DNA of 35,000 nucleotides, taken from IMG/VR virus record IMGVR_UViG_3300033145_002376, positions 1 through 35,000 of that record, one strand, 5' to 3'. Below the pieces are notes generated by a model that saw only the letters and a list, made by a program, of their open reading frames with translations, made no database searches and had not been told where the DNA came from. Positions 5,430 through 35,000 of the stretch are shown here, piece by piece (the first letter of the stretch is position 1; every line of letters starts with the position of its first letter). The DNA comes from a virus. The position numbers were made by a program, and so were the translations under genes.

Positions 5430-5928
5430 GCAAAGTAGATATGGTAAACTAGGAATAGTAATTTACAGTTTATATAAAGGAGATAGGGAATTCTCCAAGT
5501 GGTTGAAAAGCCGAAAGCATAGATTGGTAAATCATAAAAAATTAGACGAGGAAGAATTGCAGTGGATAATTATAGATAGAGTAGCTTTATTATTAAAAGG
5601 AATGAATTTTAACATTATAACTATTCCTCCGTGTAAGCATAGGAGACGACCAAGAGAGGCGTTTATTGGCCATATAGCGAAAATGCTATCTGCCAAATTA
5701 GATATAGATTTTGTTATTACTTTAAAAGACCATATTGAGCAGATGCGAACTTTAAAAGATAGATTGAGAAGGCCACTGAAGAATTACTTTGTAAAGCAGG
5801 AAGTTACCGGTAAAAAGATACTCTTGCTTGATGATTTTGTTTACACGGGAATAACAATGTATAGAGCAAAGAAAACATTAGAGGAAATGGGGAACGAGGT
5901 ATATCCTTTAGCATTAACGCAGAGATGA
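5419..5928 (+). CDS. phosphoribosyltransferase-like protein
   Basis: 169 residues from TTG 5419, overlapping the methyltransferase end by 11 bases. The segment KKILLLDDFVYTGITM (132-147) matches the PRPP-binding loop of type I phosphoribosyltransferases (hydrophobic strand, DD, TG-T), close to ComF-like proteins. PPCKHRRR at 70-77 could be the catalytic-loop region. The product might salvage a base for nucleotide synthesis or DNA modification, but substrate residues cannot be assigned. Its place between a DNA-modification gene and terminase is notable. Confidence 0.75.
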   Translation: MKIKQSRYGKLGIVIYSLYKGDREFSKWLKSRKHRLVNHKKLDEEELQWIIIDRVALLLKGMNFNIITIPPCKHRRRPREAFIGHIAKMLSAKLDIDFVITLKDHIEQMRTLKDRLRRPLKNYFVKQEVTGKKILLLDDFVYTGITMYRAKKTLEEMGNEVYPLALTQR

Positions 5929-5935
5929 AATAGAG

Positions 5936-6388
5936 ATGGCTAAACTAATTCATAAAGAAACTTTAAGGCATAGAGAAGCGTTTGAGTATTTCTACAGTTT
6001 AGGAGACAAAAGAAGTTTAGCTCAGGTTGAGAATAAGTTTAGGATTTCTGAGCAAACCGCGATTAACTGGAGTTATTCTTTTAATTGGAAAGAACGGGTA
6101 GAGCAACGAGACATAGAGAATGCTAAAAAGCTCGCTCAAAAGACCGATATGTCAATTGTGAATACCAAAGCTAACTACCGAAAGGAAATAAAAGACAGTT
6201 TGAGGATTATCCGAGCCGCAATAGGGACAGCAATCCTAAAGCTTAAAAGTGGGGAATTAACGGTATATAGTATGGCAGATTTGAATCAGCTGATTACGGC
6301 ACAGGATAAGCTAATGAAACTTGATTTACTTATGATGGGCGAAGCAACTGAGAAAGAAGAGCATAAGATTACTTTTGAAGATGTCTGA
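5936..6388 (+). CDS. terS: terminase small subunit
   Basis: 150 residues, next to the large terminase. Residues 27-51 form a helix-turn-helix-like segment (SLAQVENKFRISEQTAINWS) as expected for the DNA-recognition domain; helical oligomerisation segments follow and the tail is acidic. It recognises the packaging site and loads DNA onto the large subunit. The call rests on HTH, length and position rather than a diagnostic signature. Confidence 0.8.
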   Translation: MAKLIHKETLRHREAFEYFYSLGDKRSLAQVENKFRISEQTAINWSYSFNWKERVEQRDIENAKKLAQKTDMSIVNTKANYRKEIKDSLRIIRAAIGTAILKLKSGELTVYSMADLNQLITAQDKLMKLDLLMMGEATEKEEHKITFEDV

Positions 6389-19768: not shown

Positions 19769-20368
19769 TTGATAATAGCTTGTATCATAGTATTTAATGA
19801 GGAAAAATTTATTGAGAGATGTCTTCGCTCTTTGAAAAATAAAGCTGATAGAATAATTGTGGTAGATGGAGTATATAAAGATTTTCCCCATGAAATCCCT
19901 CACTCTACCGATAGAACAATTCAGATAATTCAAGATATAACTCCTGAGGCTTCTATCATACAGACACTTAATCCCTGGCATTCGCAGGTGGAGAAACGCA
20001 ATTTCTATTTGGGTGGAGAAAAAGGCGATTGGTATTTCCATATTGATGCCGATGAGGAACTTGTTGGAAAGCTACCCAATACAGCAAGGCTTAATCGAGA
20101 AGCATATAATATTCAGATTAGAGGCAAGCATTCTATTTTAGGGTTGCGATTATTTAAGCATCAGGATGGTATTCATTATGAGGGAGCTCATAATGCTCTT
20201 TGGGTAAGAGACCGATTGCTTAGATTTTATAATTATCCCATACTTTCTTTATGCTATCTCAAGCATCATTCAGAAGAAAGAGATGAGGAAAGAAAAAAAG
20301 CCCAACAAATTTATTATGGCAGGCAATATGAAGCCGAAAAAGAATTCAGGAAACAATATGTCTTTTGA
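19769..20368 (+). CDS. family 2-like glycosyltransferase
   Basis: 199 residues from TTG 19769. The GT-A fold signature is IIACIIVFNEEKFIERCLRS at the N-terminus, VDG for the nucleotide-binding strand, and HIDADEE for the metal-binding DxD. It transfers a sugar from a nucleotide-sugar donor to an unknown acceptor. It starts the sugar part of the cargo cassette. The next gene starts within its 3' end. Confidence 0.85.
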   Translation: MIIACIIVFNEEKFIERCLRSLKNKADRIIVVDGVYKDFPHEIPHSTDRTIQIIQDITPEASIIQTLNPWHSQVEKRNFYLGGEKGDWYFHIDADEELVGKLPNTARLNREAYNIQIRGKHSILGLRLFKHQDGIHYEGAHNALWVRDRLLRFYNYPILSLCYLKHHSEERDEERKKAQQIYYGRQYEAEKEFRKQYVF

Positions 20369-20909
20369 ATGGGATAGAAGGGCGATAAAGGAAAAAGGAT
20401 TGAGGAAGGTTATGTCTATTGGAGCTCCGCTGGATCAATTAGAGGCAAGGTCAAAAAAAGAAATAAAAAATATAACTAATATAATCAAGAATTTAGATGT
20501 GAGAACGATTCTTGATTATGGTTGTGGGATTGGCCGTTTAACTGGATCCCTATCAAAAAAATGGGATATAATCGGGGCAGACATTAGTAGGGAAATGCTA
20601 AAAATAGCAAAGAAGACATATCCTGATGTGCAATTTCTACCTATTGAGAAAATTCAAGGAATATTTGATTTGGTTCTTACTTATACGGTTCTTCAGCATA
20701 TCCCTGATAGCGAAATTGACAAGGTATTACAGAATATTCAAAAATTTAGTGGGAAATATGTTCTTTTTGTAGAGTCATTAGGAAAGCGGTATCAAGGACA
20801 TATTTATTTGAGACCTCTCGAAAAATATATTCTACCAGGATTTACTTTGATTCAAACAATTATTTATGGAGCACATACGATAATATTGGAGAAAAGGAAA
20901 GGTTTCTAA
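20358..20909 (+). CDS. class I SAM-dependent methyltransferase
   Basis: 183 residues from ATG 20358 (AGGAAAC upstream); an earlier ATG at 20283 lies within the glycosyltransferase gene. Motif I is ILDYGCGIGRLTGSL, then GADISREML and FDLVLTYTVLQHI, the standard Rossmann methyltransferase pattern. The small-molecule or sugar-type fold and glycosyltransferase neighbours suggest glycan methylation; DNA-type DPPY motifs are absent. Confidence 0.85.
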   Translation: MSFEWDRRAIKEKGLRKVMSIGAPLDQLEARSKKEIKNITNIIKNLDVRTILDYGCGIGRLTGSLSKKWDIIGADISREMLKIAKKTYPDVQFLPIEKIQGIFDLVLTYTVLQHIPDSEIDKVLQNIQKFSGKYVLFVESLGKRYQGHIYLRPLEKYILPGFTLIQTIIYGAHTIILEKRKGF

Positions 20910-21806
20910 TTGAGGATTTTATTTGTAGGGCAATTTGAAACTAAAGGTTCACGGCAAAGAAATGAGGAACTCGTATATTACGCTCTTTCAAAATTAGTTA
21001 AGGTTGATAAATATTTTTTAACCTTGAGAACTTACAGGGAACTTCCCCGGCTTTCTAAAAAATACGATTGGATACTTTTTTCTACTCCTTGTATTTTCTC
21101 TATTTTCCCCGACACACTCAAAAAACTAAAGTGTAAAGCCTGTGTGTGGACTTACGATTGGATGTGGATACAGGGAAGGCAAAAAAAGTTTATCCCCTTT
21201 GCTCGGAGCTGCGATATAGCCCTTACTACTGATGATATGATTGATTGGAAAAGCTATGGAATAAATCATTATTGTTTAAGACAGGGGGTGGATTCGAGGG
21301 TTCATTATCGAGATTCTTTTGATCCAGCTTATCAAGCTGATGTTGCTTTTACCGGGACTATAAGATCCAAAAAAAGGCAAATATTAGCTACAAAATTGAG
21401 AAATGAATTTGGAGATGATTTCAGAATCTGGGATACCGTAACTTATAGAAATAAAGGAACGGCAGGGGAAAGCCGTAGAATATTTCGCAAGATTTGTGCC
21501 TCGACAAGAGTTCTCATCGGACCGGGAAAGCTATTTGATAGGGTTAAGGAATATTGGAGCAACCGGGTTTATATTACTCTTGGCTGTGGAGGGTTCTTTA
21601 TCAACGAACACATCCCTGGGTTGGAGAAGGAATTCTGTAATGGTAAGCATCTTGTATTGACAGATCACCCTATAGATTCTATTCGGTATTATCTTAATCA
21701 TCCCGGGGAACGAAAGAAAATAGCAGATGCCGGATGTAAATGGGTGCATAAAAATCATACCTACAATTTGAGGGTTAAAAGATTACTTGAAATTTTGAAG
21801 GTATAA
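20910..21806 (+). CDS. GT-B glycosyltransferase, CgeB-like
   Basis: 298 residues from TTG 20910, directly after the previous stop. MRILFVGQFETKGSRQRNEE is the N-terminal Rossmann half; VWTYDW and TTDDMIDWKSYG fit CgeB/DUF3880-type proteins. The C-terminal VKEYWSNRVYITLGCGGFF and the helix ending ADAGCKWVHKNHTY are the donor-binding half of Glyco_trans_1_2. Acceptor unknown. The following 79 bp hold only the SD of the next gene. Confidence 0.78.
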   Translation: MRILFVGQFETKGSRQRNEELVYYALSKLVKVDKYFLTLRTYRELPRLSKKYDWILFSTPCIFSIFPDTLKKLKCKACVWTYDWMWIQGRQKKFIPFARSCDIALTTDDMIDWKSYGINHYCLRQGVDSRVHYRDSFDPAYQADVAFTGTIRSKKRQILATKLRNEFGDDFRIWDTVTYRNKGTAGESRRIFRKICASTRVLIGPGKLFDRVKEYWSNRVYITLGCGGFFINEHIPGLEKEFCNGKHLVLTDHPIDSIRYYLNHPGERKKIADAGCKWVHKNHTYNLRVKRLLEILKV

Positions 21807-21885
21807 GTTTAAGCCTTACTTCTTGAACTCGCAAATTTGGGCTATGTATGGAGGCGTTTTAAGATAATCTGAAAGGAGATAAGGG

Positions 21886-22572
21886 GTGAAATCTTTAATA
21901 ATTGGTAAGGGTATCGTTGGAGGAGCTCTTAAAAACAAAATAATTGATGCAGATATTGTGGATAAAGATTATACAGTTCTTGATATATGTTTTTCTTATA
22001 GTGAAAAATTTGTAGATACCGTGGTAAGTTATGCCAAAAGATATAACCCGGAAATAGTGATAATCCATTCAACGGTTTTACCGGGCACTACAAAGAAGAT
22101 ATATGAGAAAGGAATTCCTGTTGTATATTCTCCAACCATTGGGAGGCATGATAATCTGGAAATTAAAAGTAAACTTATAGCGAGCTACGAGGAAGAAGCT
22201 CTACAAAAAGCAATAGAATATTTTGATGAATATGGTATAGAGCAATGGCTTTATATTGAATCTGTCGAAGCTCTGGAGCTGGGCAAATTATTATCAACTC
22301 TTTATTATGGTTGGTGTATAGCATTTGAAAAGGAAGTTTATGTTCTTTGCGAAAAACTGGGAATTGATTTTAAACAGGCCTATCAAAAATTTAATGTTTA
22401 TTATAATGAGCAATATCGGGAAACTAATTTTGTTAGGCCAATTTTAAAGCAAAAAAGGGGAGGAATTGGAGGAACCTGTGTTATTCCAAATGCAGAATTA
22501 TTGAAAAAATTTATCCCAAATATTCTTTGTCAATTTTTATTAGAAAGGAATAAGAAATGGAAATCGGAGTGA
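21886..22572 (+). CDS. UDP-sugar dehydrogenase-like protein, short form
   Basis: 228 residues from GTG 21886 (AAGGAG at 21873-21878). The N-terminus has an NAD-binding IIGKGIVGGAL loop and IIHSTVLPGTT, as in UDP-glucose/GDP-mannose dehydrogenases. The helical middle ends GGIGGTCVIPNAEL, with Cys198 at the place of the family's catalytic Cys, though the usual PKD is PNA. The C-terminal UDP-binding domain is missing (full enzymes exceed 400 residues). It may be a reduced dehydrogenase acting with a partner or on another substrate. Confidence 0.7.
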   Translation: MKSLIIGKGIVGGALKNKIIDADIVDKDYTVLDICFSYSEKFVDTVVSYAKRYNPEIVIIHSTVLPGTTKKIYEKGIPVVYSPTIGRHDNLEIKSKLIASYEEEALQKAIEYFDEYGIEQWLYIESVEALELGKLLSTLYYGWCIAFEKEVYVLCEKLGIDFKQAYQKFNVYYNEQYRETNFVRPILKQKRGGIGGTCVIPNAELLKKFIPNILCQFLLERNKKWKSE

Positions 22573-23639
22573 TTTCGTGGGCGACTAACTGCGGATTATC
22601 CACTATAGTAGATAGCTGGAGAAAAAATCTCCCTATACAGCACTATCTATCGGTTTTATCTCCGGGAAGAGGTATTAGGGAAGACTGGACAAAAGAGGCC
22701 GATATAGTTACGGCAACCCCCATCACGGTAAATACCCTCAAGGCATTCTATAAGAAAATTGATCTCTTATTAGTATGTGAGAATCCATTATGTCCTTTTG
22801 CATATAAACTTGCTAAAAATATGGGAATAAAAACTGTTCTTATTCCACGCTGGGAATGGGTATATTGGGGGCTCTGGCAAGATGTGGACTGGTTTATAGC
22901 GGATACGAAATGTTGTTATGATTTTCTAACTCGTAATCTTGGTTTTGATAATGTTTCTTATATTCCCCATCCCGTTGATACAGAATTGTTTAGATTTGCG
23001 AACCGAGAGAATGCGAACCTTTTTCTTCATAATGCAGGCTGGGGAGGAATTGAGGAACGAAAGAATACACGAGCAGTGATTGAAGCATTTAACGGGACTG
23101 ATATTCCACTTTTAATCAGGACTCAGAAGAAACTCTCTTTTAATGTTACAAAGAATATTCTCATCCAAACGGGAAATGATGATAATCCACTTTATTGTTA
23201 CCGGTATGGAGAAGTGGCCGTGCAACCTTCTAAATTTGAGGGATTAGGATTGACGATACTTGAGGCGATGTCTTGTGGAATTCCCGTGATAACAACTGAT
23301 GCTCCACCGATGAATGAGTATTTCTCTGACAAGAATTTTTTGGTTCAAGCGAAAACGGTAAGAGGCCGACGAATGCAGAATCCCTCTGCTCCAAAATGGG
23401 AAATAAATATCGAGGATCTACGAAGGAAAGTTAGGAATTTATATGGGCAGAATATTAGAGAAAAATCAGAGCAAGTTAGACAAATTATTGAAAAAACTTA
23501 TTCCTGGAAAGCTCAAGGGGAGAAGTTTTTAGATATTCTGGAAAAAGTTTATAAAGAAGAACTTAAAAAGGAAAGAGAAATAACAGTAGATGACCTAAAT
23601 GAAGGGAAACTACCTTTCAAAATAAAAAATGAGGTGTAA
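22557..23639 (+). CDS. family 4-like glycosyltransferase (GT-B)
   Basis: 360 residues; ATG 22557 overlaps the previous gene by 16 bases. The C-terminal half contains QPSKFEGLGLTILEAMSCG with the EX7E motif and GIPVITTDAPPMNEY, defining GT4-type retaining glycosyltransferases. IPHPVDTELF marks the domain junction. It is the last gene of the sugar cassette; the major tail protein starts five bases later. Confidence 0.88.
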   Translation: MEIGVISWATNCGLSTIVDSWRKNLPIQHYLSVLSPGRGIREDWTKEADIVTATPITVNTLKAFYKKIDLLLVCENPLCPFAYKLAKNMGIKTVLIPRWEWVYWGLWQDVDWFIADTKCCYDFLTRNLGFDNVSYIPHPVDTELFRFANRENANLFLHNAGWGGIEERKNTRAVIEAFNGTDIPLLIRTQKKLSFNVTKNILIQTGNDDNPLYCYRYGEVAVQPSKFEGLGLTILEAMSCGIPVITTDAPPMNEYFSDKNFLVQAKTVRGRRMQNPSAPKWEINIEDLRRKVRNLYGQNIREKSEQVRQIIEKTYSWKAQGEKFLDILEKVYKEELKKEREITVDDLNEGKLPFKIKNEV

Positions 23640-24709: not shown

Positions 24710-24904
24710 TTGATTTACTTCTACCATCTTGGATATGAAGATTTCAAGGAGATGCCTTTTAGAAGAGTTTGGACACTGTGGAATAATATCCCGGGAATTT
24801 GGGATACATTCTGGGGTGGAAAGGAAAGCAAAGAAGAGGTAAAAGAGCCGAATATTAAAGAATTAGCAAGGAAATTTAAGATTAAATTACCGAGAGGTTT
24901 ATAA
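24710..24904 (+). CDS. tail assembly chaperone C-terminal (T) part, made by -1 frameshift
   Basis: The frame is open from upstream of the slippery heptamers, so the TTG at 24710 is probably not a start. After shifting at the second heptamer the protein continues VSFSFIYATLIYFYHLGYED and FRRVWTLWNNIPGIW to the stop at 24904. The fusion would be about 173 residues. This matches the conserved lambda G/GT logic in which the T part binds the tape measure. No convincing SD precedes the TTG. Confidence 0.75.
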   Translation: MIYFYHLGYEDFKEMPFRRVWTLWNNIPGIWDTFWGGKESKEEVKEPNIKELARKFKIKLPRGL

Positions 24905-27762
24905 TGGCAGAACTTGGTGAAGCATATGTCCGGATTAGAGCTGATTTAACGGGATTAACGGCTGGTCTTGTGACAGCTAAAGCTCAAGTTGCAAGTGGCG
25001 TAGCCGGCATGGGCAAAAAGATAACGACTTTGGGTCCACAAATTAGACAAGTAGGTATGGCTATGACAGGAGCTGGAGCTGTTATTACTGGAGCTTTAGG
25101 TTTAGCGATTAAAACCACAGGTGATTTTCAGCAATCAATGGCGAATGTTCAATCGGTTGCTGGAGCAACATCAGAGGAACTTACCAAGCTAACTGATTAT
25201 GCAAGAGTGATGGGAGAAAAATCAGTATTTTCAGCATCCGAAGCTGCTGATGCTATGTATTATCTTGCTTCCGCTGGTATGAACACTAACCAAATTATGG
25301 ATTCTTTAAAAGGAACATTGGATTTAGCAGCAGCAACTCAATCTGATCTTGCTTTTACATCTGAAACTGTTGCAGCTACATTATCAGCTTATTCATTGAA
25401 AGCTGAAGAAGCTGAAAGAGTATCAAATGTATTCGCTGCTACAGTCTCAGCATCACAGGCTACGATGGAAAAACTCTCAACTTCTATGTCTTATGTTGGG
25501 CCCGTAGCAAAGAGCGTGGGAATGTCATTGGAAGAAACAACTGGAATTTTAGGAAATTTATATAATGCTGGACTTGATGGTTCTATGGCAGGCACTGCAT
25601 TAAGAGGAAGTATCTCAAGGTTATTGAATCCGTCTGAAAAAGCAGCAGCAATTCTTAATAAGTTAAATATTAATGTAACAGAATTTACAGGTGCAAGTGA
25701 GGAACAAAGAGCAAAACTTGAAGCTCTTTCTGATGCTATGGATGAATTAGAGACTGCGGGAAAGGAAACTTCAGAGGAATATGGAGCGTTAAATAATCAA
25801 TTTGTTGAATTAGTTAGTGAAATGACAAAAAGTGGAACAAAAATGATAGATTTTTCTGAAATTGTAGACCAGCTTCACGATAGTGGTATGTCGACTGCTG
25901 AAGCGATGCAAGTCTTTGGTTTGAGGGCTGGTCCTGCTATGATTGCTCTTACCTCCAAAGGTGGGCAGGCAATAAAAGATATGACTGATAAGGTAACAGG
26001 AACTCAAAAGGCTACGGAGATGGCAGCTATTCAGATAAATACTTTTGAAGGTTCAATGAAATTATTAAAGTCAGCAGCCCAAGAGTTACAGATTGCTCTT
26101 GGCACTACTCTTATGCCCATCCTTACAGATTTGGTAGGGCAGGTGACAGAAGTAGTGAAAAAGGTCTCAGCTTGGTCAGAGAAACACCCAGTTCTTACGG
26201 AAACACTTTTGAAGTTTGCCTTAGTTCTTGGCCCCTTAATGCTTGCTGGAGGTCCACTTTTAATGTTAGCTCCTACAATAGCTGGTATTACAGCAGCCTT
26301 ACCTGCTTTGATAGCTGGATTTGCTCCTCTTCTTGGGCCAGCAGGAATTATTTTAGGAATCGCTACAGTAGTAGCTCTTCTTTACACAGCTTGGACTAAA
26401 AATTGGGGGGGAATTCAAGAAAAAACTAAAGCTGTAATAGATTGGTTTAAAGATATACCCGAAAAGTTTAGGACATTTGGAAATGATATTATGGCTAACT
26501 TTAAAAAAGGGCTTTCTGGTTGGAAAGATTCAATAATGAAAATTGTAGAAGGTATTGGAAATGCAATTATAGATTTTGTAAAAAGTATTCCTAAGAAAGT
26601 ATATCAAGCGGGGATGGATATCATAACAAAGTGGACAGATGGAATCAAGGCTGGAGTAAATAAAGTAAAAGAAGCTGGGGGTTGGATAGCTGGAAAAATG
26701 GCAGACTTTTTGGGTAAATCGCTACCCAAGAAAGGACCATTGGCAACTGTTTTCAAAGGAGGAAAATCAATTACTCTCGAATGGCTAAAGGGAATGCTCT
26801 CAAATTTAGCTACCCTTGAGGGAATAGGAAAAACGTTAGCCAAAAGGATTACAGAATATCTTTTGGGTCCCCTCGATGAACTTAAGGACAATCTTGGAAA
26901 ATCTGAAGATTCTTGGCAAGGTTTTTGGGATAGTATTAGTGATGGATTAGAAGCTGTAACTGATAAGATTCTTGAAAGCACTACAAATTGGTATGATATC
27001 TTTATGGGTTTCTTTGATGATATGAAATCAGGATTTGCTTCTACAATTGAGGAATGGATGAAGGGAGCAACTACATTTGGTCAATTTTTTCAAGAGCTTG
27101 GTCAAGATATAGTTGATGCTTTCGTAAAACAAATAGCAAATATGGCAGCGGAATGGTTAGCAAAGGAGACAATGATGACTATTGCTACTATTACGGGAGC
27201 GAAGACTCGGAAGGCAGCAGAGGAAAAATCTCTTTTATGGCGAGTAGCAAAACACGCTTGGGTAATAGCAGCAATGATAGCTAAAGAAATTGCCTATACA
27301 CTAAAAGTAATAGCCGAGTCGGTAGCCCGTTGTGCTCAGTATGCAATTGAGGCAGCGGCAAGAGCAGCGGCAGGTCTTTTTGGATTTGTAGGTGGAATTA
27401 TAGGGGGAATACTGGGGATATTTGGGTTGGAGAAGGGAGGCAAGGTTCCCGGACATCTAATCCCCATTGCTACCGCTCAGGCTGGGAAGAAATTCTCCCG
27501 ACCCACTTTAGCAATGGTGGCTGAAGGGGGCCCCGAGCGAGTATTAAATGCACGAGAGACAAGAGCATATGAGCGGGGAGGAAGAATGAGTAATTTCGGG
27601 CCCGTTAATGTAAACGTTATATTCCCAAATGCAAACCTTGAAAATATGGACCAAGGAAGACTTGAGCGAATATTTAGAATGAAATTTATTCCTGCAATTA
27701 AGGATGCAGTAAAATCAGGTCTACTTTCTCCAGAACTTGTGGAAATAAGGGGGGCCCGATGA
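24904..27762 (+). CDS. tail tape measure protein
   Basis: 952 residues; ATG 24904 overlaps the previous stop. Residues about 75-250 carry the TP901-type core (FQQSMANVQSVAG, EAADAMYYLASAGM, GTALRGSISRLLNP). Residues 434-495 are hydrophobic, including LPALIAGFAPLLGPAGIILG; a second Gly-rich hydrophobic segment lies near 817-842 (FGFVGGIIGGILGIFG). These may help DNA pass the cell membrane. No peptidase or lysozyme motif was seen. At roughly 1.5 angstrom per residue the tail would be near 140 nm (inference). Confidence 0.95.
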   Translation: MAELGEAYVRIRADLTGLTAGLVTAKAQVASGVAGMGKKITTLGPQIRQVGMAMTGAGAVITGALGLAIKTTGDFQQSMANVQSVAGATSEELTKLTDYARVMGEKSVFSASEAADAMYYLASAGMNTNQIMDSLKGTLDLAAATQSDLAFTSETVAATLSAYSLKAEEAERVSNVFAATVSASQATMEKLSTSMSYVGPVAKSVGMSLEETTGILGNLYNAGLDGSMAGTALRGSISRLLNPSEKAAAILNKLNINVTEFTGASEEQRAKLEALSDAMDELETAGKETSEEYGALNNQFVELVSEMTKSGTKMIDFSEIVDQLHDSGMSTAEAMQVFGLRAGPAMIALTSKGGQAIKDMTDKVTGTQKATEMAAIQINTFEGSMKLLKSAAQELQIALGTTLMPILTDLVGQVTEVVKKVSAWSEKHPVLTETLLKFALVLGPLMLAGGPLLMLAPTIAGITAALPALIAGFAPLLGPAGIILGIATVVALLYTAWTKNWGGIQEKTKAVIDWFKDIPEKFRTFGNDIMANFKKGLSGWKDSIMKIVEGIGNAIIDFVKSIPKKVYQAGMDIITKWTDGIKAGVNKVKEAGGWIAGKMADFLGKSLPKKGPLATVFKGGKSITLEWLKGMLSNLATLEGIGKTLAKRITEYLLGPLDELKDNLGKSEDSWQGFWDSISDGLEAVTDKILESTTNWYDIFMGFFDDMKSGFASTIEEWMKGATTFGQFFQELGQDIVDAFVKQIANMAAEWLAKETMMTIATITGAKTRKAAEEKSLLWRVAKHAWVIAAMIAKEIAYTLKVIAESVARCAQYAIEAAARAAAGLFGFVGGIIGGILGIFGLEKGGKVPGHLIPIATAQAGKKFSRPTLAMVAEGGPERVLNARETRAYERGGRMSNFGPVNVNVIFPNANLENMDQGRLERIFRMKFIPAIKDAVKSGLLSPELVEIRGAR

Positions 27763-28136
27763 TGGCAAATAATCCCACAATGAGTTTAACGGATGGTGTA
27801 GATACGGTGAACTTTTCTCCTCGTGAAGGGTATGAAGTTCCCGAGGAGAGAAAACGAAGCATTCATCGTACATTAGACGATACTCTCTATATATATGAAT
27901 GGGGACATAAGGGAAGATATGAAATTCCTGTATTTAATATTAGCTCTACGGATAAGGAGCACATCGAAACTTGGTGGCAAGGTATGACTAAATTAACCTT
28001 TGTGCCCGATAAAATAAATGCCCCCGGAACTTCAATTTCGGTAAGGATTATTAATGAGGATAAACCCCTACAAATGATATATCCAAAGTGGGCTGATATA
28101 TATGAAGGTAATTTAATTTTGAGGCAGGTTGTATGA
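27759..28136 (+). CDS. distal tail-like protein
   Basis: 125 residues; ATGATG at 27759 overlaps the tape measure stop. It is beta-rich (MSLTDGVDTVNFSPREGYEV, LYIYEWGHKGRYEIPVFNIS, IETWWQGMTKLTFVPD), of the size and place of a small distal tail (Dit-like) or tail-tip adaptor protein. It overlaps the hub gene by 4 bases, so the two are coupled. Confidence 0.65.
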   Translation: MMANNPTMSLTDGVDTVNFSPREGYEVPEERKRSIHRTLDDTLYIYEWGHKGRYEIPVFNISSTDKEHIETWWQGMTKLTFVPDKINAPGTSISVRIINEDKPLQMIYPKWADIYEGNLILRQVV

Positions 28137-29821
28137 TAAGTGTATCTGATGCTTTTGAGACAAAGTTAAAGGCTAAAACAAATAATCCTCGAATTAGATT
28201 AGTTCTGGGGGCGGAGCGAATAACTCTTGGTGATTTAGACGATGATAATGGGGATTTCGAAGGAGCGGGAGCAGATGGTACTGATATAGAAACGGGGACA
28301 GATTGGAGTAAGATTAACTGCTCTGCCGAGGTTGATGATGAGGCTGGCTCAGGTGTTAACACTTACAATGGCTCTGATTTCTGCTGTAAGATTCACAGCG
28401 TAACTCTCGGTAAGGGACGAATAGTCTTACAGGGGGCTAATCTTGATGCGGTGTGGACTATTGGCCAGCGATATAGAATACAATTTGACTATAAAGTAGC
28501 TTCTACCACAAAAGCAGTAATTCGTGTTAGTAACGATGGGGCAACCCTTGACGAAGAGTATTCCTTGACAAGCACTACTTGGGCAACTGCGGGCTTTAAT
28601 TTCACAGTTATAAATAACACCGATATAGTCATAGAGGTGTCTCCTTACTGGGCTATTAGTGGAGAGACGGGCAACGAAATTGTCTGGATTGATAACATGT
28701 CAATCAAATGGGTTGCTGATGATTTTCTGATGGGGATATCTCAGGTCTCACGAAAGGCAAATTTAACTTCAGGATTTGCATCTATAAAATTAAGCAATAC
28801 TGAAAAAACTTGGAATATATTTTTATCTGATAAAACTAATTTAGGTGAGACAGCTCAATTAAATTTCTATTTCCATGGTGACACCGAACTTTTACCCTTA
28901 TTCACTGGCACAATCGAGGAAGCACAATATCGAAAAGCTGAAGTAACTTTGAAAATTCGCGACAAGATGCTTCCTATGTTAGAAAAAAGAATAGGAAGTG
29001 GGCAGGGCCCAGTAAGCTATTATGCAGCGGATCATAACCCAGCGGATTTAGTCTGGGATATCCTTACTGTTTATGGTGAACTTGACGATACAGCAAGCAC
29101 GGCAAATACGGATATCGATTATACCAGCTGGGAGCAGTGGCAAACCGATTGTGATACTTTAAGTTTCGTATTGAGGGCAAGGTTTACGGGACACTATATT
29201 AAAACAGCTCTTCTAAAAATAGCTGAACTTACAAATACTTACATTTGGGTGGGAGGAGATGGCAAGTTCCATTTCGAGAGGCCTATTCCTCCGTTTCCTC
29301 CTGGCGGTTTGACTAACTTTACCTGTTCAAATTGTTTAAAAATAGATACTTCTTTATCGAAAGATACGCTTTGCAATAAAGCTAAGTGCTACTATGGTTA
29401 CTCTCCTGACACAGATACTTGGGCGGGGAGCTATACATCGGAAGATAGTTCTTCTCAAACGGAGTATGGATTAAGAGAAGATGTAAATGAGGATAAGGTT
29501 ATCTGGCATCAAACAGAAGGAAGTGCAAAAAGCTACACTGATAGGGTGATTGACAAGAATAAAACCCCTTTTGAATTGATAGACGTTACATCGACTATGC
29601 TTGGTTATCTTCAACAATTGGGCGACACAATAACGATTACCGAGCTACTGAAAGGCTATAATTTTAGTCCAGCAAGGATAATTGAGATTTCTTCATTTAA
29701 TCTTGAGAATGGCACAATGGATTTTAAGGCAAGGGAAATATCGGATGAGCAGTTGGCAGCATTTTATTTGGATGATCCAGTCTATGGTGTTTTGGACTGG
29801 GATGGAAATCCTTTATATTGA
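28133..29821 (+). CDS. tail hub protein with inserted carbohydrate-binding-like domain
   Basis: 562 residues. The hub part resembles tail-tip proteins: FETKLKAKTNNPRIRLVLG at the start, then FTGTIEEAQYRKAEVTLKIRD, IAELTNTYIWVGGDGKFHFER and a C-terminal YLQQLGDTITI, ARIIEISSFNLENGTMDF. Residues about 35-195 are an insertion with a CBM4/9-like jelly-roll pattern: NGDFEGAG at the start, GRIVLQGANL, YRIQFDYKVAS and WIDNMSIKW at the end. The insert probably binds host surface glycans at the tail tip. Confidence 0.75.
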   Translation: MISVSDAFETKLKAKTNNPRIRLVLGAERITLGDLDDDNGDFEGAGADGTDIETGTDWSKINCSAEVDDEAGSGVNTYNGSDFCCKIHSVTLGKGRIVLQGANLDAVWTIGQRYRIQFDYKVASTTKAVIRVSNDGATLDEEYSLTSTTWATAGFNFTVINNTDIVIEVSPYWAISGETGNEIVWIDNMSIKWVADDFLMGISQVSRKANLTSGFASIKLSNTEKTWNIFLSDKTNLGETAQLNFYFHGDTELLPLFTGTIEEAQYRKAEVTLKIRDKMLPMLEKRIGSGQGPVSYYAADHNPADLVWDILTVYGELDDTASTANTDIDYTSWEQWQTDCDTLSFVLRARFTGHYIKTALLKIAELTNTYIWVGGDGKFHFERPIPPFPPGGLTNFTCSNCLKIDTSLSKDTLCNKAKCYYGYSPDTDTWAGSYTSEDSSSQTEYGLREDVNEDKVIWHQTEGSAKSYTDRVIDKNKTPFELIDVTSTMLGYLQQLGDTITITELLKGYNFSPARIIEISSFNLENGTMDFKAREISDEQLAAFYLDDPVYGVLDWDGNPLY

Positions 29822-30069: not shown

Positions 30070-31134
30070 ATGGTTAATAAAAAAGTAATCCAAGCTTTAA
30101 TTCAGGATAAGTGGAAAGAATGGCAAGTTAAGTTCGAGAAGAAACCTCTTCGTTGGGATAAAGAGTATTTACGCACTGTTAAATGCCACTTCTGCGGTAA
30201 GGAAGCTAAAGAGAGGTATCCAAATGAGGGATTTTTCGGTTGGTCAATTTTATCGCTAGCAATAGATAGAGAAGGTAAATCACCTGAGGTATGTCCTGAT
30301 TGCTTAAAAAAAGTTGGAGAAAAATTGACTGTTAAAGAGCCTCGTGTAGAGAGATGCTCTAAGTGTGGTACTGTTCAGAAGGAGAAAATATTTGGTATAG
30401 GATTTCCTGGGTGGATTTACATTCAATCCCTACAGACTCTCGGCAGTAAGAAAACTCCAATTGTCTGTCCTGATTGCTATCTTAAATTAGGATTAAAACT
30501 CGGGCCAAAGTTTATTAGAGGAACATGGACATCTTTAACCTACCCTGCTGACTCACTTTTAACGTCAACTAAGATGACTCAAAACCAAGCTAACTTTACT
30601 GCAGTTGCAGAAGGACACACAGATGCACCGGTTATTTCAGGTGATATACAAACCGCTAAAGGTAAACTGATTAAAAAGATAGCCGTTGATGATAATACTT
30701 ACACAATTATAGATGACGATGCGAAAGTTTGGAGAGCAGTTTTTAATGATCTTGCAGAGTTAATGCCGGTTAGGGGAGAAACAAAACCTGGTGATGTTCT
30801 GATTTGGGTTGATGGTAAAGTTGAGAAATCTAAATTTGCTAACGATAAGAGAGTGATTGGGGTTCACTCGGATACATACGGATTCCTGTTAGGAGGTTCT
30901 AATCAGAAATCTATTAAAGAGGCAATCAAAAAAGGTTTCGTTCCGGTAGCAATTTCAGGAAAAGTTAAAGTGAAAGTAGTCGGGCCTGTAACTGTAGGAG
31001 ACATGTTAATGACAAGCAATATTGAAGGTGTAGCAATGCGAGGAAATGTTTTGGGAGGCATTGTAGGCAAAGCATTGGAGGACTTATTGCCTGCGGAACA
31101 GAAAAAAATTGAAATGTTGATTACGGTGAGGTGA
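30070..31134 (+). CDS. tail fibre-type protein with two zinc ribbons
   Basis: 354 residues from ATG 30070 (AAGGAGG at 30052-30058). Residues 39-78 and 96-136 are two homologous modules, each CxxCG, then GFxGW, then CPDC with a K.G tail (C39, C42, C75, C78 and C96, C99, C133, C136). A fibre linker follows (SLTYPADSLLTSTKMTQNQA). Residues from about 225 form the fibre C-terminal domain found in many tail fibres (DLAELMPVRGETKPGDVLIW, GFVPVAISGKVKVKV, GKALEDLLPAEQ). It is likely a tail-tip host-binding protein; zinc ribbons in such a protein are unusual. Confidence 0.75.
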   Translation: MVNKKVIQALIQDKWKEWQVKFEKKPLRWDKEYLRTVKCHFCGKEAKERYPNEGFFGWSILSLAIDREGKSPEVCPDCLKKVGEKLTVKEPRVERCSKCGTVQKEKIFGIGFPGWIYIQSLQTLGSKKTPIVCPDCYLKLGLKLGPKFIRGTWTSLTYPADSLLTSTKMTQNQANFTAVAEGHTDAPVISGDIQTAKGKLIKKIAVDDNTYTIIDDDAKVWRAVFNDLAELMPVRGETKPGDVLIWVDGKVEKSKFANDKRVIGVHSDTYGFLLGGSNQKSIKEAIKKGFVPVAISGKVKVKVVGPVTVGDMLMTSNIEGVAMRGNVLGGIVGKALEDLLPAEQKKIEMLITVR

Positions 31135-31141
31135 AGCAAAA

Positions 31142-31645
31142 ATGGGTTTTGATTGGGCACCTGTTTTGGCGGGTGATATTTCTCTTGACGACTTCGTCGA
31201 TGGGGTTCAAGTAAACATTGGAACAGTATATTCTGACCTGGAATTATCTGCACCTTCTTGGACTTATTTGCCTGTGGATGCTGGTGATTTTGACAAGCAT
31301 GACCAGTTCCAAGAAGTAAGAGACAAAGTTGATTACGCAGATGATATGAATTACTGTAGAAGTCACGATGCAACCTATTATGTAACATACTATAATGATG
31401 AGCACACAACTTATCGCAATGACCATCATACATCAGTTTTAACCTCGGAAAAAAGTGGATATGATGCAACTTATAACAGTGGTGTGCAATCGGGAGCAGA
31501 TGCAACTATTCATGCAACTGCTGACTCAGGTTATAAAGACAACGATCATGGCACCTACGACTCTGGAGATGATGGGTCTCATTATAGTTTTGATAATGGA
31601 AATGTTCATGGGACTAATAATGCTTCTGTAAAGAGTGGTTACTGA
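31142..31645 (+). CDS. Tyr/Asp-rich repetitive protein 1 (candidate radical SAM substrate)
   Basis: 167 residues, seven bases after the tail-fibre-like gene. Residues 1-75 hold two copies of a helical module with pattern W..PV.AGD..; the second reads FQEVRDKVDYADDMNYC. The rest is low-complexity, rich in Tyr, Asp, Ser, Asn, Gly and His: ATYYVTYYNDEHTTYRND, KSGYDATYNSG, GTYDSGDDGSHYS, ending KSGY; 15 Tyr in all. It shares TYYNDxHxTY and the EVR..VD...D...C module with the next protein. No enzyme motif. Position beside tail genes suggests a virion tail protein; position before two radical SAM genes suggests it is modified. Confidence 0.8.
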   Translation: MGFDWAPVLAGDISLDDFVDGVQVNIGTVYSDLELSAPSWTYLPVDAGDFDKHDQFQEVRDKVDYADDMNYCRSHDATYYVTYYNDEHTTYRNDHHTSVLTSEKSGYDATYNSGVQSGADATIHATADSGYKDNDHGTYDSGDDGSHYSFDNGNVHGTNNASVKSGY

Positions 31646-31662
31646 AAACACTGGAGTTAAAA

Positions 31663-32166
31663 ATGGCATTTACTTGGGTAAAAAATATAAATGTTGGTGC
31701 AGAAATAAAACTGGAGTGTCTTACTGAAATAAGGAATAATATTGACAGTATAAAGGATAATGAAGCTTGCATTACAGATAAGGGAACTTATCAATCAAGC
31801 TACGATGCTGGGGTTGATGCTAATTATGATGCGGGGATCGATGCTACATACAACTCTACTTATTATAATGACCAACATAGCACATATAACTCAACAGTTA
31901 GAATTTCAGAAGACTCAGTTCAATATACTACAGTTGATGATGGACAGAAGTCAGGATATGATAGCAATAAGGACTCTGCTTATAATAGCTCAGATGAAGG
32001 GGGATATGACTCAACTGATTACGGGACTTTCAAGCAATCTTATGAGAGCACGGTCTATAGCGGTCACGATTCCAGCTATGATAGCTCATACGATTCCTCA
32101 TATGATGCCTCAGACGATTCCTCATATGATGCCTCAGACTATTTCGGAGAATATGCCTTCGACTAG
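31663..32166 (+). CDS. Tyr/Asp/Ser repeat protein 2 (candidate radical SAM substrate)
   Basis: 167 residues with GGAG about 7 bases upstream of ATG 31663. The N-terminal module has W5 and EIRNNIDSIKDNEAC, aligning without gaps to EVRDKVDYADDMNYC of protein 1. After it come 20 Tyr mostly in Y-[DN]-[SA] triplets: SSYDAGVDANYDAGIDATYN, AYNSSDEGGYDSTDY, and a terminal array DSSYDSSY, DSSYDASD, DSSYDASD. It is very acidic with few Lys or Arg. The leader-like module plus repetitive aromatic core resembles a RiPP precursor, but it is much larger than typical ones. It ends 11 bases before the first radical SAM gene. Confidence 0.82.
   Translation: MAFTWVKNINVGAEIKLECLTEIRNNIDSIKDNEACITDKGTYQSSYDAGVDANYDAGIDATYNSTYYNDQHSTYNSTVRISEDSVQYTTVDDGQKSGYDSNKDSAYNSSDEGGYDSTDYGTFKQSYESTVYSGHDSSYDSSYDSSYDASDDSSYDASDYFGEYAFD
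32068..32139 (+). repeat. 24-bp tandem repeat encoding DSSYDxS units
   Basis: 32092-32115 and 32116-32139 are identical 24-mers; 32068-32091 is a diverged third unit. Each encodes eight residues (DSSYDSSY, DSSYDASD, DSSYDASD). The perfect copies point to recent slippage and a core whose length can change quickly. Confidence 0.85.
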
Positions 32167-32177
32167 GTCAGAAATAA

Positions 32178-33506
32178 ATGAAAAATTTAGTTGCTTCAGA
32201 AATTTTTTCCTCCGGCGTTTGCAATTTAAACTGTAAATATTGCTATATTCCAAAAACACGAATGATGCAGGGATTGCAGGAAGCTATTGTATCAGGGTTA
32301 AAGTCTGGCAATTTTATCGAAGATTTATGCAAGATATACGGTCAGAATCTGGAGAGCTTGTCTTTTTGGGGTGCGGAGCCAACTTTGACTCTGAGATACA
32401 TCGAACCACATTTGACTAAGTTATTCCAAGCTTTTCCAAAACTGAAGGAGATAGACTTCTCAACAAATTTGCTGACCTCTCGTGAGTTGTTATTTAGTTT
32501 TATAAAAGCTTTAAGTAAGCAAAAGAGAAAATTCAAACTCAAGATTCAAATCTCATTGGACGGGCCTGATTTTATAACAGATGTCAATCGAATGGCTGGA
32601 GCAACCAAGAAAATATGCGAAAACTTTACCTTTCTCATCATGAAGTTAAATGATCTACCACTTGAAAATTTGCGAGTGGAATTCAGAGTTAAGCCAACCC
32701 TGACAATAGATAATGTTAGACTATTTGATGAGGACCATAGTAAGATTAAGCAGTATTTCGATTTCTTCAATATTGTAGAATCCAATTTCAAGAAGTTGAA
32801 CGAGAGTGAGCTATTGAGTTTCAACAATTCTTGCTCTCCGACTATGTGTGTGCCAGGAAAATATACCAGTGAAGATGGAAGAGAATTTGCGTTGTTTCTC
32901 AAGAATTTAAGAGAATTGGGGTATAAAAGCACTTATAGTTATCGTTTGGATAGACTATTTAACTATGAGGATGAGCTTTTCACCAAACCCTCAATGTTCA
33001 CGTGTTCTGGTGGCAGAAGTAATGCTGGTCTTGGTATCAAGAACGATTTGCATATTTGTCATCGCTCATTTTTCCTTAATCATGACGAATACTTAAAAAG
33101 TATCCTCAAACAGGATAAGATGAAAAACTGGGATGTATCTCTATTTGAACAAGGTAAAATTGGACTAATAAATGATAGATTTATAGTAGATGCAACAGAC
33201 AAAAATGAAAGAATACGATGGCAGTATGTGCTGAGGAACTATCACGACTTTACAAGACTAAGGAATAGTTATGTAATCGCTATGCTTAAGGAATTAGCTC
33301 TATGTGGTCAAGCAGATAAGCGATATCTAAAAGATGATAACTTATGTATGGTGTTCGCCATCTTTATGAATTCGGCAAACAGTTGTCCTGTAGAGGCACT
33401 GATTAACACAGGCTGTGTTCATTTTACACCAGTAAGTATGCTACGGTTATGGGGCAATGGAGCTTTTCAGGAATTGTTGAAAGAGAGAGAAAATGAGAGC
33501 AGCTAA
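32178..33506 (+). CDS. radical SAM protein 1 with auxiliary cysteines
   Basis: 442 residues. C15-x3-C19-x2-C22 in GVCNLNCKYCYIPK binds the radical SAM [4Fe-4S] cluster; SFWGAEPTL takes the place of the SAM-binding GGEP motif, and KIQISLDGPD follows the usual order. Further Cys at 219, 224, 276, 294, 403 and 413 could hold an auxiliary cluster, but the canonical CxxCxxxxxCxxxC SPASM motif is absent. FTCSGGRSNAGLGIKNDLHI then CHR resembles the first part of a SPASM/anSME-like domain. It probably modifies the Tyr-rich proteins encoded just upstream (inference). The next gene overlaps by 14 bases. Confidence 0.85.
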   Translation: MKNLVASEIFSSGVCNLNCKYCYIPKTRMMQGLQEAIVSGLKSGNFIEDLCKIYGQNLESLSFWGAEPTLTLRYIEPHLTKLFQAFPKLKEIDFSTNLLTSRELLFSFIKALSKQKRKFKLKIQISLDGPDFITDVNRMAGATKKICENFTFLIMKLNDLPLENLRVEFRVKPTLTIDNVRLFDEDHSKIKQYFDFFNIVESNFKKLNESELLSFNNSCSPTMCVPGKYTSEDGREFALFLKNLRELGYKSTYSYRLDRLFNYEDELFTKPSMFTCSGGRSNAGLGIKNDLHICHRSFFLNHDEYLKSILKQDKMKNWDVSLFEQGKIGLINDRFIVDATDKNERIRWQYVLRNYHDFTRLRNSYVIAMLKELALCGQADKRYLKDDNLCMVFAIFMNSANSCPVEALINTGCVHFTPVSMLRLWGNGAFQELLKERENESS

Positions 33507-34773
33507 TTTCCAAGAAGAAAATGACCAGTTATTCAATTCAGTTCTTTCTCATACATTTTACAAAGAGATAGAGAATTTTGACAGAATTGAATTCTACTTG
33601 GGAGCAAGCTGTAACCAGGATTGTAAATACTGTTACCTCACTCGATACGGCAAAAAACTTTATCCCCCAGAAATAGAAAAGAAAAATTTAATGCTTCACA
33701 ATCTTGAACTGCTTTGCAATTGGATGATCGAAAACAATTACAGCTGGGGAATTGATTATTTTGCTGGAGAGAACTACTCAATCCTGCTTTCTGCACTGGA
33801 ACTAATTCTGCACAAGTTTGAAAAGATAGAAAAGAAACCCAAATGTATTGTTATCCCAACTAACTACAGTTTTATCCTAAACTATAGATTAACAGATGAG
33901 ATGGAAGGTTTGCTTAAGGAGTCAAGAAAGATTGGAATCCCCATTTCACTGTCAGCAAGTTTTGACGGTAAGTATTGTGATTGTGCAAGAATGGAGCATG
34001 GAGATGAATTCTATGATAGGTGTTTTAACTTTAACAAGCGATGGAGTTTTGGTTTCCACCCTATGATTGCACCTCAGAATATAGAGCATTGGAAGAAGAA
34101 CTGGATTTGGTTTCAAGAAAACTTTTCACGATTTGGGCTTCCTCTCGATAATATCTACTTACTTGAGGTTCGTAATCCTGAGTGGAGTAAAACACAAACG
34201 AAAGAGTTTAGCAAGTTTATTGAGTTTCTAATTGAATGGACGTTCAACTATGCCTGCTCAAAAAATAAGGATTTATTTCTCGATTTAATATTTAACAGAC
34301 GAGGCTACAACATTCTATCTAATACTCTTTCAATGGTTGGCAGAGGTTTAGGTTGCTCTTTTCAATCTTGTCTGTATGTCAGAATAGGAGATTTATCGAT
34401 AGTTCCTTGTCACAGAACGAGTTATGAACCTTTTATCTTGGGGAAATTTAAGGTATCTGATAACAAGATTGTGGGGATTGAAGCAAAGAATCCTGAATTA
34501 TTTATAGGTGGAATTTCCTTTGATTTTAAGAATCAACCACAATGCGAAGTTTGTATAATAAAACATTTATGCTCGGGAGGTTGTCTTGGTTCTCAATTTG
34601 AGACTACGGGAGATATGTTTTCACCTATTCCAACAGTTTGCCGATTAGAACATTTTAAGATTGCATCGATGATTAGAGCTTATCAAAAAATCGGAGTTTA
34701 TAAAATGATAAAGGAAAGAGTGAATAAAGAAAAACAAGCCTCCCTTAAGGCAATAGAGGAGAATTTATTATGA
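33493..34773 (+). CDS. radical SAM/SPASM protein 2
   Basis: 426 residues; ATG 33493 overlaps radical SAM gene 1. C40-x3-C44-x2-C47 in GASCNQDCKYCYLTR is the radical SAM motif; YFAGEN sits where GGEP would be. The C-terminal region has C288, C293 and C306 (IVPCHR), then C351-x2-C354-x5-C360-x3-C364 (CEVCIIKHLCSGGC) and C383, a full SPASM arrangement for two auxiliary clusters, as in peptide-modifying enzymes. Paired with the other enzyme and two repetitive substrates, it is the best evidence for peptide maturation in this cassette. Confidence 0.9.
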   Translation: MRAANFQEENDQLFNSVLSHTFYKEIENFDRIEFYLGASCNQDCKYCYLTRYGKKLYPPEIEKKNLMLHNLELLCNWMIENNYSWGIDYFAGENYSILLSALELILHKFEKIEKKPKCIVIPTNYSFILNYRLTDEMEGLLKESRKIGIPISLSASFDGKYCDCARMEHGDEFYDRCFNFNKRWSFGFHPMIAPQNIEHWKKNWIWFQENFSRFGLPLDNIYLLEVRNPEWSKTQTKEFSKFIEFLIEWTFNYACSKNKDLFLDLIFNRRGYNILSNTLSMVGRGLGCSFQSCLYVRIGDLSIVPCHRTSYEPFILGKFKVSDNKIVGIEAKNPELFIGGISFDFKNQPQCEVCIIKHLCSGGCLGSQFETTGDMFSPIPTVCRLEHFKIASMIRAYQKIGVYKMIKERVNKEKQASLKAIEENLL

Positions 34774-35000
34774 AAGAGAATGATATCAAAGCATATCAAA
34801 GGAATGTAAAAGAAATAAAGCGTATTCTTGGATTCAAGAGAGAGCTTCACAAGGTCTTTAATGATAAGAATATAGAGAAGATTGAGAAGGTTTTTGATTT
34901 GATAACCGATGATATGGATTTTTTGGTTCAAGATAAGAAAGTTGGGGTAACTAGTGAGAAGAAGTCTCAAGTTAAGGAAATAGTTAACCTCTTTCTAAAT
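34770..35000 (+). CDS. helical protein, 3'-truncated by window edge
   Basis: ATG 34770 overlaps the TGA of radical SAM gene 2 (ATGA), with AGAGGAG upstream. The 77 visible residues are charged and helical (NVKEIKRILGFKRELHKVF, NIEKIEKVFDLITDDMDFL). Translational coupling suggests it works with the radical SAM enzymes, perhaps as an accessory or substrate-binding protein. No domain recognised. Confidence 0.6.
   Translation, partial: MKENDIKAYQRNVKEIKRILGFKRELHKVFNDKNIEKIEKVFDLITDDMDFLVQDKKVGVTSEKKSQVKEIVNLFLN

Follow-up and report, generated by a model that had tools for sequence, protein, structure and literature searches.

The right end of the window analyzed here, a 35 kb stretch of DNA from an uncultured tailed phage (positions 1 to 35,000 of IMG/VR record IMGVR_UViG_3300033145_002376) that is probably a fragment of a virus genome, carries a cassette of five genes, all on the plus strand. 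These encode two repeat proteins, P1 and P2, two radical S-adenosylmethionine (SAM) enzymes, rSAM1 and rSAM2, and a helical protein, HEL. The rSAM1 and rSAM2 reading frames overlap by 14 nt, and those of rSAM2 and HEL by 4 nt. An initial annotation made from the DNA alone took these genes for a candidate tail-protein maturation system, and its coordinates, Tyr counts and gene overlaps all proved correct in an open reading frame (ORF) check. No part of the cassette scores above a curated family cut-off.

Both repeat proteins are 167 residues long and share an N-terminal domain with the consensus FxW..I..Gd.I....inEiR.NiD, which ends in Cys. P1 (REPa; 31142..31645, 15 Tyr), defined by its ORF, the domain profile and its tetrad register, consists of two copies of this domain, a junction Cys and 24 tetrapeptides. 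P2 (REPb; 31663..32166, 20 Tyr), defined by its ORF and an N-terminal domain match at E = 2e-19, has one copy, the junction Cys and 32 tetrapeptides. The tails of P1 (95 residues, 31358..31642) and P2 (131 residues, 31771..32163) have period-4 z-scores of 18.4 and 37.0, respectively, with 0 of 1000 shuffles as high in either case; periods of 3, 5, 6, 7 and 9 are not raised over shuffles in these tails. The shuffle statistics exclude chance or ORF misreading as the source of the pattern. Each tail is an uninterrupted series of bulky-polar-small-small tetrads, in a single register from the junction Cys to the C-terminus, and the junction Cys itself falls in register at tetrad position 2. Small residues (Gly, Ala, Ser or Thr) occupy positions 1 to 4 at frequencies of 0.08, 0, 0.83 and 0.78 in P1 and 0, 0, 0.84 and 0.84 in P2. 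The Tyr-rich repeats of the initial annotation are therefore real, but their unit is a strict tetrad and not the Y-[DN]-[SA] triplet it had described. Likewise, Tyr is the commonest residue at tetrad position 1, but only one among several found there.

The same grammar extends to the relatives described below. Over 1578 in-register tetrads from 43 REP proteins at 23 loci, position 1 is mostly Tyr, Val, Asp, His, Glu or Asn, position 2 Asp, Asn or Tyr, position 3 Ser, Ala, Thr or Gly, and position 4 Thr, Ser or Gly, with small residues nearly absent from position 2. Cys residues of the REP tails are strongly confined, 78 of 82 lying at position 2 when the junction Cys is counted, a bias that none of the explanations considered here accounts for. 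In AlphaFold2 models of the REP monomer the N-terminal segment is confident, while the P2 tail attains a predicted local distance difference test (pLDDT) score of only about 41-67 by block and adopts no confident fold. An unfolded tail in perfect register fits either a serially modified substrate or a fiber that folds only as an oligomer, and the monomer model does not separate the two. Assignment to a known repeat fold was rejected, as Pfam and PHROGs returned isolated weak matches only and the modeled tail has no confident fold.

rSAM1 (442 residues, 32178..33506) matches the radical SAM family PF04055 at E = 6.7e-6, with 26.8 bits against a cut-off of 29.5. Its CxxxCxxC iron-sulfur motif (C15xxxC19xxC22, 32220..32243) is invariant in the alignment of its family (A1). 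rSAM2 (426 residues, 33493..34773) is weakly matched in Pfam and clearly by NCBIfam radical SAM models, reaching 26.8 bits against a cut-off of 27 for the SPASM model TIGR04085; its own CxxxCxxC motif (C40xxxC44xxC47, 33610..33633) is invariant in the corresponding alignment (A2). The motif is kept in 35/35 rSAM1 and 37/37 rSAM2 homologs, which places both enzymes in the radical SAM superfamily. rSAM2 also has seven auxiliary SPASM cysteines (C288, C306, C351, C354, C360, C364 and C383; 34354..34641), all invariant in A2, and the CxxCx5Cx3C arrangement is present in 37/37 homologs. Just three further Cys are invariant in A1, and a SPASM domain is established for rSAM2 alone. The families closest to both enzymes are maturases of peptides and proteins (PapB, QhpD-type enzymes, sulfatase maturases, SCIFF and GrrM), with scores in every case far under the cut-offs. 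The PapB ranthipeptide maturase model leads these similarities, with 41.4 bits for rSAM1 and 45.5 for rSAM2, about one-eighth of its curated cut-off of 340. Relatives of known structure are few by sequence (8vpo, 5wgg and 9gm3). We conclude from these profile comparisons that rSAM1 and rSAM2 probably represent two uncatalogued families that modify peptides or proteins.

HEL is truncated by the end of the window (34770..35000, 77 residues; profile match at E = 5e-15) and is about 145-190 residues long in relatives. The full-length protein from one of these (L017) is predicted to be all-helical, without strands, at a pLDDT of 91.8. This predicted fold has no match in the PDB or BFVD at E<=0.001, and none of 32 HEL proteins matches HxsD. 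A recognition element (RRE) for ribosomally synthesized and post-translationally modified peptides (RiPPs) was not found in the enzymes, where 14 (rSAM1) and 39 (rSAM2) residues precede the first Cys, nor in the all-helical HEL. HEL as an RRE, an HxsD or another known fold is thus unsupported.

Scanning viral contigs with alignments of both enzymes identified about 30 contigs, while rSAM2 used as a single sequence matched none. A genome collection contributed four contigs from metagenome-assembled genomes (MAGs) labeled Nanohalarchaeota, Thermoplasmata, Clostridia and Peptococcaceae; these may be virus contigs binned with their hosts. In all, we counted 35 loci, the window plus about 34 relatives, most of them highly divergent, from viral, archaeal or bacterial MAG, and TAG-recoded sequences. 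Both radical SAM genes are present in 34/35, the exception (L038) being a 5 kb contig that ends before rSAM1. Repeat proteins lie beside the enzymes in 34/35 loci, 28 recognized by the N-terminal domain profile and six by their periodicity or on visual inspection (L021, L040, L041, L044, L065 and L009), and the HEL profile finds its target in 31/35. Three gene orders occur: REP-REP-rSAM1-rSAM2-HEL, rSAM1-rSAM2-HEL-REP-REP, and rSAM1-HEL-REP-REP-rSAM2-HEL. The last, in which the REP genes separate the enzymes, defines a single rSAM2 clade (L030, L031, L033, L035 and L038) with 100/100 support. In the four complete members of this clade HEL follows each radical SAM gene, suggesting that HEL works with a radical SAM enzyme. 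Because gene order varies, the association has outlived rearrangement. The enzymes of L040, L043, L044, L045 and L009 contain in-frame TAG codons that read through cleanly when TAG is taken as a residue, so the cassette is present in recoded phages as well; L042 likewise shows TAG read-through within conserved enzymes.

Repeat-protein homologs lacking radical SAM genes, which would speak against the initial annotation, did not appear in two limited converse scans that started from the repeat proteins. These recovered their seed contigs only, so close relatives without the enzymes are absent; the result says nothing on distant ones. A codon-level search for the tetrad pattern, intended as an unbiased converse check, was uninformative, its listed matches being mainly short-unit DNA repeats. 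Among cultured phages, tblastn found no rSAM1 and no REP, and for rSAM2 only distant genes of Campylobacter phages.

The cassette stands directly 3' of tail hub and fiber genes, as initially noted. Upstream are the tape measure gene (24904-27762, PF10145 match), a hub-like gene (28133-29821) with a weak tail-fiber PHROG match, and, immediately 5' of the cassette on the same strand, a gene for a tail-associated protein (30073..31134). The C-terminal 'NDLAE..PGDV' domain of this protein, identified by profile search, recurs upstream of the cassette in 13/38 loci. The window contains, in this order, large terminase, portal, Mu F-like, weakly matched prohead protease, capsid and tape measure genes, and these together with the neighboring domain place the cassette in a tailed-phage structural module. 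Two features of the REP proteins themselves point in the same direction. REPa of L027 carries a long lectin-like insert, and the REPs of L031 (8502-9059) and L038 (284-1075) end exactly in SDxRLKKxIxYI, which resembles the start of the S74 intramolecular chaperone domain; the remainder of that domain is absent. From the neighbors, the insert and the terminal motif, the REPs are probably parts of the virion tail.

We consider it fairly likely, at a probability of about 0.72, that the radical SAM pair together with HEL modifies the tetrad tails of phage REP proteins before or during tail assembly. In favor are the co-occurrence of enzymes, REPs and HEL through changes of gene order, the similarity of both enzymes to known maturases, the correlation of rSAM1 with rSAM2 distances (r = 0.88, 0/2000 permutations as high) and the way repeat composition tracks enzyme divergence. 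The cassette would produce REPa and REPb, each with an N-terminal domain ahead of a tail of strict tetrapeptide repeats, with the N-terminal domain serving for recognition or anchoring. The two enzymes would then act post-translationally on the repeats as a dedicated pair, roughly one tetrad after another, and HEL would be their delivery or partner protein. The products would reside in the virion tail, where the modification, whether a crosslink, an epimerization or something else, would order or stiffen a fiber that is otherwise unfolded and hydrophilic. The fullest form of this proposal, a phage-encoded machine of two radical SAM enzymes and a new helical partner that converts unfolded tetrads serially into a regular, polymer-like tail fiber, has about an even chance of being right.

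Several observations weigh against modification of the REP tails. Radical SAM enzymes encoded in late operons could serve different substrates, the cassette contains no recognized leader peptidase or transporter, and the predicted fold of HEL is not RRE-like. At L066 both enzymes are present and no adjacent repeat protein was found. Repeat composition varies much between loci, and some use triads (L063 and L041) or irregular tails (L044 and L043). Finally, co-divergence of rSAM1 and rSAM2 is partly expected for any linked phage genes, and their correlation has no unlinked control.

The initial annotation correctly recognized a conserved pairing of substrate and maturase beside tail genes; its specific chemistry, a radical reaction on the Tyr of Y-[DN]-[SA], is unsupported as stated. 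Glycine lacks a C-beta and cannot take a C-beta crosslink, so an obligatory bond from every position-1 aromatic to the C-beta of the third residue would predict a deficit of Gly at position 3 after aromatics. No such deficit is seen: the frequency of Gly at position 3 is 0.109 after an aromatic and 0.108 after other residues, and the 55 instances that follow aromatics compare with 59.2 expected from within-protein permutation. Moreover, aromatics make up anything between 2% and 64% of position 1 in individual REP proteins. In the split-order clade they account for 0.02-0.26 per locus, against a median of 0.38 at the other loci (p = 0.0025), and four of its members (L030, L031, L035 and L038) have 2-18% per protein, with Val, Asp, Gln or Lys in their place. 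Together, the undepleted Gly and the aromatic-poor clade rule out a universal Tyr chemistry. The aromatic content of the repeats also follows rSAM2 distance (r = 0.42, 4/2000 permutations), although shared ancestry and genome composition could be responsible for part of this. That composition follows the enzyme clade supports a general link between enzyme and substrate, and speaks against one Tyr-specific reaction.

Two narrower versions of REP modification can be weighed on these data. In the first, the chemistry is neutral to the side chain: one set residue of each tetrad, most likely a small one at position 3 or 4, is epimerized or otherwise activated at its C-alpha, yielding a regular non-natural backbone. 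All clades keep the register and have small residues at positions 3 and 4 but share no single side chain, and radical SAM peptide epimerases accept several residue types. On the other hand, to our knowledge such epimerases act on short peptides, and the work would have to be split between two different enzymes; we regard this version as unlikely, though worth keeping in view. The second, that of the initial annotation, is a triceptide-like cyclophane, in which a position-1 aromatic (Tyr or His) is joined to the C-beta of Ser, Ala, Asp or Asn at position 3, stiffening the fiber. Positions 1-3 of the tetrad fit an aromatic-X-X motif, about 44% of the P1 and P2 tetrads begin with an aromatic, Ser is enriched at position 3 after Tyr (0.443 versus 0.275 otherwise, p = 2e-8), and rSAM1 is weakly similar to the cyclophane-forming GrrM, YhhB and AmcB. 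The undepleted Gly and the scarcity of aromatics throughout one rSAM2 clade (2-26% per locus) count against it, as does the thioether-type PapB model, which matches the enzymes at least equally well, and the cyclophane is accordingly a slightly weaker candidate.

The remaining alternatives depart from a modified tail. The REPs could be leader-core precursors of a secreted or intracellular peptide directed against the host or competing phages. A conserved N-terminal domain followed by a variable, repetitive C-terminal part, in two precursors encoded next to two radical SAM enzymes, reproduces the anatomy of a RiPP cluster. However, the cassette has no recognized protease or transporter, it is located among tail genes, the repeat proteins of L021 and L027 reach 400-500 residues with long extra parts, and the S74-like motif of L031 and L038 is at odds with a peptide product, so that we find this improbable. 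Least credible is that auxiliary metabolic or nucleic acid-modifying enzymes lie by coincidence beside ordinary low-complexity tail fibers: Campylobacter phages CP220 and CPt10 do carry many radical SAM genes read as metabolic (PMC2853527), one of which rSAM2 weakly matches, but enzymes, REPs and HEL stay linked despite rearrangement, across archaeal and bacterial MAG loci and recoded phages, repeat composition tracks the enzymes, and the pair without a REP is seen in L066 only.

Other repeat proteins and radical SAM genes were observed along the way. The repeat protein of L063 (1689-2102), on the Nanohalarchaeota MAG contig, has a period of 3 (DYTDYTDDADYYDNSD) rather than 4, and strongly period-3, possibly collagen-like proteins are encoded upstream of the cassette at L032 (1210-2118) and L036 (2013-5236), in phages of 169-223 kb. 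At L010 (12543-13046), L012 (5265-6305), L014 (10008-10430) and L044 (4381-5133), several radical SAM genes adjoin Cys-rich proteins with short repeats (CHSN, CDCNYCTC, CNCDRC and CTGxC); these may form another class of such systems, built on Cys. Elsewhere in the window, an additional small radical SAM protein of 283 residues (2073-2924) is encoded far from the cassette, and two glycosyltransferase-type genes with small enzyme-like neighbors (19769-23639) are situated within the structural gene block.

Bacterial peptides and a few enzymes are known to be matured by radical SAM chemistry, and a literature search that left out most subscription journals found no description of a phage repeat protein matured in this way. 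If the proposed modification of REP tails is real, phage tail assembly gains a chemical step, a set of phage radical SAM genes otherwise labeled metabolic finds an explanation, and enzymes working serially on simple tetrads become available. With 1578 tetrads in strict register and numerous divergent enzyme pairs to draw on, the chemistry is open to direct testing.

Scores under the cut-offs rule out membership of the Hxs, PapB and QhpD families, though each offers a partial parallel. In the His-Xaa-Ser system, hxsABCD, the radical SAM maturases HxsB and HxsC accompany the repeat protein HxsA and the small HxsD. Our cassette similarly combines paired radical SAM enzymes with a protein of short repeats and one further small protein, and differs in having tetrads rather than H-x-S and a phage tail context. 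rSAM1 of the window reaches 19.6 bits against the HxsB cut-off of 370, and rSAM2 matches neither HxsB nor HxsC; HxsC does not appear in the family listing of either enzyme (for rSAM1, the best 25 of 31), and P1 and P2 have no NCBIfam match to HxsA or HxsD. One member of the rSAM2 family does match HxsB, at 1e-11, and L041, a 158 kb phage, encodes a protein of His-x-Ser triad repeats (5590-6330) near rSAM1-rSAM2-HEL and more radical SAM genes. L041 is a possible bridge to the bacterial system. PapB-type ranthipeptide maturases, with the solved 5wgg enzyme, are the family to which both cassette enzymes show the best similarity, and they share the SPASM layout of rSAM2; PapB-type substrates are Cys-rich, however, whereas the cassette repeats are mostly Cys-poor, and the scores remain far under 340 bits. 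QhpD, the quinohemoprotein amine dehydrogenase maturase (TIGR03906), is a SPASM enzyme that introduces crosslinks into a subunit of a structural protein instead of making a small peptide. rSAM2 resembles it at 3e-9, but the score is 36 bits where the cut-off stands at 453, and QhpD is a single enzyme with a non-repetitive substrate.

Among phages, Campylobacter phages CP220, CPt10 and IBB_35 likewise have several radical SAM genes in a tailed phage, with a distant rSAM2 match of about 25% identity. The 11-12 such genes of CP220 and CPt10 were taken as metabolic by their authors (PMC2853527), and those of all three phages as metabolic or DNA-related (PMC2853527, PMC3322345). Unlike in the cassette, the DNA just upstream of the matching Campylobacter-phage gene showed no repeat protein. 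A closer analogy is TvgA/TvgB, in which a radical SAM enzyme converts the Val of a TVGG tetrapeptide-repeat precursor to cyclopropylglycine (PMC9062424). It shares with the cassette a tetrapeptide-repeat substrate adjoining the enzyme, and TvgA is modified repeat by repeat (PMC9062424). TvgA/TvgB differs in being bacterial, with one radical SAM enzyme, an oxidase and transporters, a Gly-Gly repeat, a peptide product and no phage link. By analogy, then, the cassette would work most like His-Xaa-Ser and TvgA/TvgB, and by the tests made it is a member of neither. Taken singly, the radical SAM/SPASM maturase and the repeat precursor belong to known kinds; what is new is their setting in a viral tail, the pair of enzyme families, the tetrads as substrate, and HEL.

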